From an uncultured Bacteroidales bacterium (GTDB taxonomy: Bacteria; Bacteroidota; Bacteroidia; Bacteroidales; Bacteroidaceae): a stretch of 45,646 bases of DNA. Made by a program: the position numbers and the translations under genes. Where the stretch lies: the NCBI GenBank assembly GCA_902775975.1, contig CACYOC010000019.1:1-45646 (forward strand). Direction: 5' to 3'. The number at the start of each line of letters is the position of its first letter. Within the stretch, counting starts at the first letter, position 1. The notes beneath the pieces were generated by a model. That model saw only the letters and a program-made list of their open reading frames with translations. It made no database searches and was not told the DNA's origin. Below, in pieces: positions 7,023 to 8,175 of the stretch.

Positions 7023-7193
7023 ATACCTCTAACTAACTTTAAGTCAATACTATCAACACTGCTTGCCGTACTGGCTCTCACGACTCCAACGAGTCTGAGA
7101 AGCCAGTACTTGCAGGTTACTCTATCCCACTATTCAGTTGACAACGGACTGACCTGCAATACAATTTTATCAATTATAAAGCACAACGAGCGA
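7023..7193 (+). pseudogene. Relic of the 5' end of a periplasmic-propeller sensor (hybrid two-component type)
   Basis: One uninterrupted frame without a start codon reads, in order, a signal-peptide-like stretch (7035-7106: NFKSILSTLLAVLALTTP, then SLRSQ) and HYSVDNGLTCNTILSII (7128-7178). The second part closely resembles the first blade of the Reg_prop/Y_Y_Y sensor domain (pattern hYsvedGLsqntV..IlqD) at the mature N-terminus of Bacteroidetes hybrid two-component regulators. The ATA at 7023 is one base from ATG. Similarity ends near 7190, where the rest of a gene of more than 1,000 codons would be expected. I infer a truncated, dead gene; this is pattern recognition, not an alignment. Confidence 0.5.
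7068..7109 (+). repeat. Long interrupted inverted repeat downstream of glyA
   Basis: GTACTGGCT (7068-7076) pairs with AGCCAGTAC (7101-7109). Inside, CTCA and CGACTC pair with GAGTC and TGAG around a CAAC loop, giving a stem of about 18 pairs. No T-run follows, so it is not a standard intrinsic terminator, but it may stabilise or end the glyA transcript. It overlaps the sensor-gene relic. Confidence 0.55.
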
Positions 7194-7209
7194 AAAAAAG
7201 AAAGAAAAA

Positions 7210-7241
7210 TTTGTTTTTTTGCCCGTTTTTCTTTATCTTTG
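7210..7241 (+). promoter_or_regulatory. Promoter of the ribE leader / structured RNA
   Basis: TTTG at 7210-7213 and TATCTTTG at 7234-7241 are exactly 20 bp apart, a near-ideal Bacteroidetes promoter. Transcription should start near 7247, about 240 nt before the ribE ATG, which leaves a long untranslated leader. Confidence 0.8.
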
Positions 7242-7246
7242 CAGTC

Positions 7247-7454
7247 AGAAACTACAGAATAGTATAGGGGCCGTTCCGGTTCGATCGGGATACTCATCAA
7301 ATTAAAATTGAAAACCGGGTCAACTACTCTTGCCAATGGCGGGCCACAACCCTGTTTAGGCAGGAAGCCGCAAGGCCGGTGGATTACAAAAGCAGAGAGC
7401 ACCCAAATCTTCCAACAAAGGAGTTTTCATCACATCATCGGGCGGTCCCTTTTT
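7247..7454 (+). ncRNA. Unidentified structured RNA / long 5' leader before ribE
   Basis: Between a strong promoter and ribE lies a GC-rich, non-coding stretch with nested pairing seen by eye. GGGGCCG (7267-7273) pairs with CGGTCCC (7443-7449), directly followed by TTTTT. Inside, GGGT pairs with ACCC, and CTCTTGC with GCAGAG. CCAC/GTGG encloses two hairpins, CCTG-CAGG and GCC-GCAA-GGC. It could be an independent small RNA with an intrinsic terminator or a cis-regulatory leader of riboflavin synthesis. It lacks the hallmarks of the FMN riboswitch, tmRNA, RNase P and SRP RNA, so I cannot name a class. A 6S-like RNA cannot be excluded. Confidence 0.5.
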
Positions 7455-7488
7455 ATCATATGAATTAAGAATTAAATTTCAAAGAACA

Positions 7489-8088
7489 ATGTTTTCAGGC
7501 ATTATTGAAGAGTTTGCTACCGTTGTAGCCATCAAAAAAGACCGAGACAATATTGACTTCACACTGACCTGTTCGTTTACCGGCGAGTTAAGTATCGACC
7601 AAAGCGTTGCCCACAACGGTGTCTGTCTGACGGTTGTAAGCATCGACGGTGACAACTATGTCGTTACCGCCATGAAGGAAACCCTTGACCGTTCAAATCT
7701 GGGACTGCTGAAGGTTGGCGACAAAGTGAATGTCGAGCGCTCCATGCTGATGAACGGCCGTCTAGACGGCCACATCGTGCAGGGCCACGTTGACGAGACC
7801 GCCCGCTGTATCGCCATGGAGGATGCCAACGGCAGTACCTACTTCACCTTCGAGTACAAGCTGGACCGAGAGATGGCTCGCAACGGCTACTTCACGGTCG
7901 ATAAGGGCAGCGTGACTGTTAACGGCGTATCGCTGACTGTCTGCAACCCCACGCAAAATACGTTTCAGGTAGCCATCATCCCCTACACCATGGAGCATAC
8001 CAACTTCCAGGACATCCGCGTCGGAACGGTCGTCAACCTCGAGTTCGACATCATCGGCAAGTACATTGCCCGCTTGCAGCAGTTTTGA
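7489..8088 (+). CDS. ribE: Riboflavin synthase (alpha subunit)
   Basis: It dismutates two 6,7-dimethyl-8-ribityllumazine molecules into riboflavin and a pyrimidinedione, the last step of vitamin B2 synthesis. The 199 residues show the typical N-terminus MFSGIIEE and two tandem lumazine-binding barrels. The first has VAHNGVCLTV (about residues 40-49) and GHIVQGHVD (about 94-102); the second has SVTVNGVSLTV (about 141-151). No other rib gene is adjacent. The 240-nt leader with a structured RNA suggests post-transcriptional control. A strong terminator ends the unit, so it is monocistronic. Confidence 0.96.
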   Translation: MFSGIIEEFATVVAIKKDRDNIDFTLTCSFTGELSIDQSVAHNGVCLTVVSIDGDNYVVTAMKETLDRSNLGLLKVGDKVNVERSMLMNGRLDGHIVQGHVDETARCIAMEDANGSTYFTFEYKLDREMARNGYFTVDKGSVTVNGVSLTVCNPTQNTFQVAIIPYTMEHTNFQDIRVGTVVNLEFDIIGKYIARLQQF

Positions 8089-8090
8089 GT

Positions 8091-8147
8091 ATAGTCCGCA
8101 TCGACGTTGCGCATAGTCCGGACAAAGAGTGCGCATAGTCCGGAACG
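8091..8147 (+). repeat. Short tandem ATAGTCCG repeats behind ribE
   Basis: ATAGTCCG occurs at 8091-8098, 8113-8120 and 8135-8142, spaced 22 bp apart, and a fourth diverged copy (AATAGTTCGGAC) becomes part of the terminator hairpin. Two copies share the longer GCGCATAGTCCGGA. The terminator may have grown from this repeat. Confidence 0.6.
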
Positions 8148-8175
8148 AGAGTCCGAATAGTTCGGACTCTTTTTT
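8148..8175 (+). terminator. Intrinsic terminator of ribE
   Basis: AGAGTCCGAA (8148-8157) pairs perfectly with TTCGGACTCT (8161-8170) around a 3-nt loop TAG and is followed by further Ts to 8175. Confidence 0.88.

Follow-up and report, generated by a model that had tools for sequence, protein, structure and literature searches.

Features of the locus

The window, as we call the whole stretch of 45,646 nucleotides analysed here from an uncultured Bacteroidales bacterium (contig CACYOC010000019.1), carries a non-coding element downstream of a gene that Pfam identified as glyA, and ahead of a riboflavin synthase gene (Table 1). The original prediction had drawn attention to this element on account of a promoter, of the pairing of its two ends (GGGGCCG 7267-7273 with CGGTCCC 7443-7449, followed by TTTTT), of inner helices (GGGT 7317-7320 with ACCC 7401-7404; CTCTTGC 7327-7333 with GCAGAG 7392-7397; CCAC 7344-7347 with GTGG 7379-7382) and of a hairpin closed by a GCAA loop (GCC-GCAA-GGC, 7367-7376), all of which are present as described. 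The promoter consists of TTTG, 20 bp and TATCTTTG; a counterpart (score 9 or 10 of 10) was found upstream of the RNA in 119 of 147 homologous loci as against 6% of random control windows, which could themselves overlap the promoter. These 147 loci comprise the best hits of each search and a hand choice of the rest, and are thus a selection of the matches. Since the box of the Bacteroidota sigma-A consensus, given as TAnnTTTG, is placed at -12 to -5 (PMC9723704), transcription would start near 7246, and the whole RNA probably spans about 7246 to 7455.

Table 1. Positions of the 6S RNA gene, its structural elements and its downstream neighbour in the window.
Feature	Position	Strand	Evidence
Own promoter, sigma-A type	7210-7241	+	TTTG 7210-7213, 20 bp, TATCTTTG 7234-7241; read from the sequence
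6S RNA, RF01693 match	7269-7453	+	120.2 bits, E 1.5e-19
Closing stem P1, 5' strand	7267-7279	+	7275 bulged; 4/12 pairs at E < 0.05, tree-aware test
P2, 5' strand	7289-7295	+	1/7 pairs at E < 0.05; others nearly invariant
Large loop, 5' side	7296-7316	+	No supported pairs; conserved CUCAUCA at edge
P3, 5' strand	7317-7319	+	0/3 pairs at E < 0.05, best E 0.062; middle pair kept in 145/146
P4, 5' strand	7324-7333	+	7/9 pairs at E < 0.05
P5, 5' strand, with conserved internal loop	7337-7347	+	4/6 pairs at E < 0.05
Terminal hairpin 1, CCUG 7351-7354 / CAGG 7361-7364	within 7351-7376	+	Sequence
Terminal hairpin 2, GCAA loop	GCC 7367-7369 / GGC 7374-7376	+	1/4 pairs at E < 0.05
P5, 3' strand	7379-7388	+	Same test as 5' strand
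P4, 3' strand	7392-7399	+	Same test as 5' strand
P3, 3' strand	7402-7404	+	Clear covariation in 40 distant homologues
Large loop, 3' side	7405-7420	+	No supported pairs; putative bubble
P2, 3' strand	7421-7428	+	Same tests as 5' strand
Closing stem P1, 3' strand, doubling as terminator stem	7438-7449	+	Tree-aware test and both-side changes
Terminator U-run (TTTTT)	7450-7454	+	Sequence
Riboflavin synthase gene (neighbour only)	7489-8088	+	Lum_binding, two stretches, E 3.6e-45 (Pfam)

Two other stretches flank these features. Between glyA and the promoter lies an open frame (7023-7214, forward strand; translation HYSVDNGLTCNTI) that gave neither a Pfam nor a plasmid match; its translation resembles the start of the sensor domains of hybrid two-component regulators, and the frame is possibly a gene remnant. 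Behind the riboflavin synthase gene, 8089-8175 of the same strand holds repeats of ATAGTCCG and ends in a terminator-like AGAGTCCGAA/TTCGGACTCT hairpin with T6.

Identity of the RNA

Searching the whole window against Rfam returned a single match other than tRNAs, to RF01693 (Bacteroidales-1), which covers the entire model (positions 1-179 of 179) at twice the gathering score of 60. The RNA is therefore not unclassified, as had been supposed. When a 301-base stretch was scanned alone, the second-best family was RF01685 (6S-Flavo), at 7292-7426 of the same strand, with 23.7 bits (E 0.31) against a gathering score of 85. Across the organism's own genome RF01693 was matched once, RF01685 was unmatched at E ≤ 0.001, and RF00013 was unmatched at E ≤ 1. 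In view of this last result the RNA is not filed under RF00013; 6S-Flavo is likewise a separate Rfam family. The Rfam entry for RF01693 reads "6S-Bacteroidales RNA suggested", so that the 6S role is there put forward only as a suggestion.

Two readings had been offered in the original prediction, one of them a leader of the riboflavin synthase gene that would respond to a flavin or another metabolite, with the closing stem and a small terminator hairpin as its alternative states. A 3-bp hairpin able to compete with P1 does exist in the window (7440-7442/7447-7449), and within the window's genus the riboflavin synthase gene follows the RNA on the same strand in 36 of 39 loci. A comparison of neighbours, in which both window proteins were set against the 147 homologous loci by tblastn (E ≤ 1e-5), found this gene behind the RNA in 0 of 108 loci outside the genus, although five of these have fewer than 300 bases downstream; glyA stood ahead of the RNA in 4 of the 147. 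As the linkage is thus limited to the genus, a flavin leader is unlikely. Even there, the spacing between RNA and gene ranges from 16 to 310 bases. Moreover, all three pairs of the competing hairpin form in only 71 of 146 homologues, with hardly any double changes, and the Rfam scans of the window and of the stretch matched no riboswitch family. We consider such a leader highly improbable; the comparisons show the RNA to be independent of the riboflavin synthase gene.

It is the second reading, an independent small RNA of 6S-like kind, that the evidence supports. We are confident that the element is the 6S RNA gene of its genome, a stand-alone gene of about 210 nt with its own promoter, ended by the closing stem and U-run. 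With this assignment the identity of the element is settled as a housekeeping RNA and not a new riboswitch. It belongs to a curated family and a well-known functional class, and is thus of an already known kind; what is added here is the wider distribution of the RNA, the zapA-6S-rny gene order and the boxA-like leader in relatives.

Secondary structure and covariation

The folding energy of the single sequence was ordinary (z -1.45 and -1.68), and its minimum-energy fold misses several of the conserved helices; the case for the structure therefore rests on comparison. Alignment by sequence only of 146 of the 147 loci (L094, cut by a contig end, was left out) placed 13 of the 14 top covariation scores on pairs of P1, P2, P4 or P5. 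Of 41 pairs tested against a tree-aware null, using our own script modelled on R-scape rather than R-scape itself, those reaching E < 0.05 are listed by helix in Table 1. They confirm in the family the core helices of RF01693 with its two hairpins, and extend to the closing stem, P1, which is the end pairing of the original prediction lengthened inwards to 7279/7438 (about 12 bp).

Alignment A1, a set of 54 of the 146 loci picked by hand for spread, gave a similar picture. The full structure left 92.3% of its cells paired, compared with 79.1% in shuffles and 40-50% in slid versions, and double changes were present in 32 of its 35 pairs, where shuffles averaged 18.2; every one of the 10 pairs counted in P1 was among them. 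In 40 distant homologues from the order, again aligned by sequence only, P1, P2 and P3 were retained with changes in step. Double changes were counted at three pairs of P1 (13, 14 and 10 of about 40 sequences), at two of P2 (11 and 16 of 38) and at three of P3 (16, 13 and 14 of about 40).

The layout that emerges, with a closing stem, a central open bubble and a terminal stem, is that of the 6S class, the bubble being defined by the absence of supported pairs. The large loop between P2 and P3 would accordingly be the site of the 6S central bubble and of the template for product RNA.

Two other arrangements of this region were considered but not adopted. The CUC/GAG hairpins flanking the bubble, which RNAalifold chose, have 95.7% of cells paired but covary no more than shuffles, and the middle pair of the 3' hairpin is lost in 10 of 146 sequences as against 1 of 146 for that of P3; they are unsupported as a release fold. 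The idea that the 5' bubble strand holds the -7 box in template form (CAAAnnTA) was discarded, as CAAA is not conserved there.

Distribution

At E ≤ 0.001, RF01693 was matched in 51 of the 60 genus genomes and in 118 of the 121 family genomes; with completeness of 90% or more and contamination of 5% or less required, these counts are 32 of 32 and 85 of 86. It was matched as well in 48 of 198 genomes sampled from the order (36 over the cut-off) and in 10 of 149 from the class, where RF01685 was matched in five. A covariance model with the fuller structure, R1, built on A1 and hence on 54 RF01693-type sequences, found the RNA in 40 of 148 genomes of the class at E ≤ 0.01, a looser threshold than the E ≤ 0.001 used for the Rfam families, with 38 of them at E ≤ 0.001. 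A second model, R2, built from 66 sequences that include order and class loci of genomes later searched, matched 176 of 196 genomes of the order and 59 of 148 of the class (E ≤ 0.001). As the model ends in a U-rich run of eight positions, the terminators of model hits are not independent of it. All but two of the 176 and all but one of the 59 genomes had a single R2 match; such near-uniformity is not that of chance hits, which would be spread less evenly. The RNA is thus shown to be near-universal and usually single-copy. With R2, which includes the covarying closing stem, reaching 176 of 196 genomes against 48 of 198 for RF01693, annotation by Rfam alone would miss the RNA in most genomes of the order.

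One genome of the family, G319, had three RF01693 matches of differing scores, on contigs C219, C214 and C107; the other matched genomes of that search had one each.

One family with 6S-Flavo

All five class loci matched by RF01685 (149 genomes, E ≤ 0.001) fall below the gathering score of that family. R1 matched each of the five (E 1.2e-14, 2.4e-12, 2.4e-11, 3.3e-8 and 6.5e-8), none of which was in its training set, and one of them, L091, also has an RF01693 match at the same place and strand. We then turned to 40 order loci lacking an RF01693 match, which were fetched from the better-scoring R2 matches. An Rfam scan of 20 of them at E ≤ 10 gave sub-threshold matches inside the RNA, on the right strand, to RF01685 in 12, to RF01693 in seven and to either or both in 13. 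These overlaps show that the RF01693 RNA shares descent with 6S-Flavo and with the RNAs found between zapA and rny (see below), and the two Rfam families look like one.

Sub-threshold matches to RF04319 (FopS, paralogous sRNAs; gathering score 56) stand near the RNA in two order loci, on the reverse strand at L029:2352-2433 (46.5 bits) and L005:2520-2595 (35.8 bits).

Gene order and the leader of distant homologues

The promoter found in the window and its close relatives is lacking in most distant homologues: a promoter score of at least 9 was reached in 0 of the 40 order loci missed by RF01693 (controls 1%) and in 7 of 31 distant loci (controls 4%), the control windows of the distant loci again being able to overlap the promoter. 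It was this absence that led to zapA and to a boxA-like element. In all 40 of the order loci missed by RF01693, a short gene on the same strand, identified by Pfam as that of the cell-division protein ZapA, ends just before the RNA. A zapA profile was trained on these 40 loci, which makes its own 40/40 there circular, the Pfam scan being free of this circularity. With the profile, zapA was recognised as the gene directly ahead of the RNA in 9 of the 12 order loci that RF01693 matches weakly and in 16 of 31 loci from the class, including four of the five RF01685 loci, but in 0 of 130 RF01693-type loci, the window among them. As L091/L115 and L163/L114 each represent one place twice, the class count corresponds to 15 of 29 distinct loci. 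On the other side of the RNA, the start of rny (RNase Y) was found in 39 of 39 loci scanned, in a frame running to the end of the piece; L221, the fortieth, has no open frame to the piece end and fell outside the scan.

In 20 RF01693-type genomes, including that of the window, zapA was found once each and RNase Y came after it in every case. The two genes have thus stayed together, with the RNA elsewhere; in the window's genus the RNA has the riboflavin synthase gene behind it and glyA or other genes ahead. Its earlier position was probably between zapA and rny, from which the 6S RNA would have been relocated in the lineage of the window. In 14 of the 20 genomes the zapA-rny gap contains a hairpin with T5 behind it, as do 20 of 400 control windows; the arms of the hairpin are often GCACT/AGTGC. 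None of four genomes in the window's genus has it. One might guess that this hairpin is the 6S closing stem left behind.

The interval from the zapA stop to the RNA contains the string G(T/C)TCTTT(G/A) in 31 of the 40 order loci (L189-L228; controls 3/1824), in 12 of 31 class loci (controls 4/1659) and in 4 of the 12 weak order loci, whereas it occurs in 1 of 130 RF01693-type loci, 101 of which have the promoter instead. The same string was found in the leaders of three of four rRNA operons; of 16 genomes searched for 16S genes only 4 yielded any, and that of the window was not one of these. The string resembles the boxA of rRNA operons, and in the relatives may act as such. Among the boxA literature searched, no paper clearly concerned the 6S RNA of this phylum.

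Taken as a whole, these observations lead us to a tentative scheme, whose chances we would place a little short of even. RF01693 and RF01685 would be one 6S family, near-universal in Bacteroidales, with zapA-6S-rny as its older gene order (the zapA-6S pair being shared with Proteobacteria). At that place transcription from zapA would continue through a boxA antitermination element (GTTCTTTG/A, as in rRNA leaders) into the RNA, which would have no promoter of its own, while the lineage of the window would have left that place and gained a promoter, without boxA. If true, this would be a change in how the cell sets the amount of a polymerase-sequestering RNA, and a comparison of self-promoted copies with those behind zapA and a boxA-like string makes a coupling of 6S supply to antitermination, part of the machinery of rRNA synthesis, testable. 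The literature searched yielded nothing on a covarying closing stem of RF01693, on the near-universal presence of the RNA in the order, on its relocation, or on a boxA-like leader in a zapA-6S-rny arrangement. Wehner et al. (2014), on the distribution of 6S RNA, reportedly lengthened 6S-Flavo and studied gene order, and parts of the wider picture may already be published there.

Predicted function

The RNA folds into a rod, in which P1, a small internal loop and P2 lead to the large open bubble, followed by P3 and the P4-P5 arm with its two hairpins. By analogy with 6S RNAs elsewhere, the bubble would imitate an open promoter and capture the housekeeping (sigma-A) RNA polymerase holoenzyme. 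On return of nucleotides, the polymerase would use the 5' side of the bubble as template for a short product RNA. This product would reproduce the 3' strand of P2, thereby opening P2 and P1 and freeing the enzyme. Both holoenzyme binding and product-RNA synthesis by the RNA of the window are predictions. Among relatives, Flavobacterium psychrophilum expresses a 6S RNA (PMC9723704), and for B. thetaiotaomicron a 6S RNA with two classes of product RNA was described from dRNA-seq, in a passage that does not name RF01693 (PMC7366714).

A 6S-like fold might bind polymerase in some other way than by promoter mimicry towards the sigma-A holoenzyme, for instance to the core enzyme, as does Ms1, which is structurally related to 6S RNA (PMC9130861, PMC4191392); the missing sequence match to RF00013 would fit such a mode. 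Against it stand the product RNAs described alongside the 6S RNA of Bacteroides (PMC7366714) and the gene order common to the relatives and ssrS, and we think it improbable. Even less probable, in our judgement, is that this conserved and structured RNA serves some unrelated purpose, such as base-pairing to mRNAs. The 6S name is only "suggested" in Rfam, and Weinberg et al. (2010), who described Bacteroidales-1, marked both cis-regulation and switch with a "?" in the entry for it (PMC2864571). This possibility is opposed by the common family with 6S-Flavo, the rod with its open bubble, the zapA linkage in relatives, and a genome that, by RF00013 and RF01685, holds no other 6S candidate. Capture of the sigma-A holoenzyme is thus the function that we favour.

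Comparison with known systems

With the FMN riboswitch (RF00050), the RNA of the window shares only its position before a riboflavin gene, and no match to it was found. Its own Rfam model, RF01693, leaves P1, P2 and P3 unpaired, in contrast to the present comparison, which supports all three. To 6S-Flavo (RF01685) it is linked by common descent, through the shared loci and the R1 matches, although its score lies far below the gathering score of that family.

6S RNA is built as a rod with a closing stem and a central open region. Such an architecture is described for Alcanivorax, in a paper that also mentions earlier reports of the order zapA-6S-ygfA from other taxa, especially Gammaproteobacteria (PMC9788540). 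In E. coli K-12, 41 bases separate the end of zapA (3055941) from the start of ssrS (3055983). R2 does not match E. coli ssrS, and the covariance model to which ssrS belongs (RF00013) has no match in the genome of the window. Kinship with the proteobacterial 6S RNA thus rests on architecture and gene order. The copy in the window is not beside zapA, a location that is customary for 6S genes without defining the class, but the place behind that gene is common to ssrS and many relatives of the window's RNA, and in ssrS, as in the window, the RNA forms a rod with a closing stem and a central open region.
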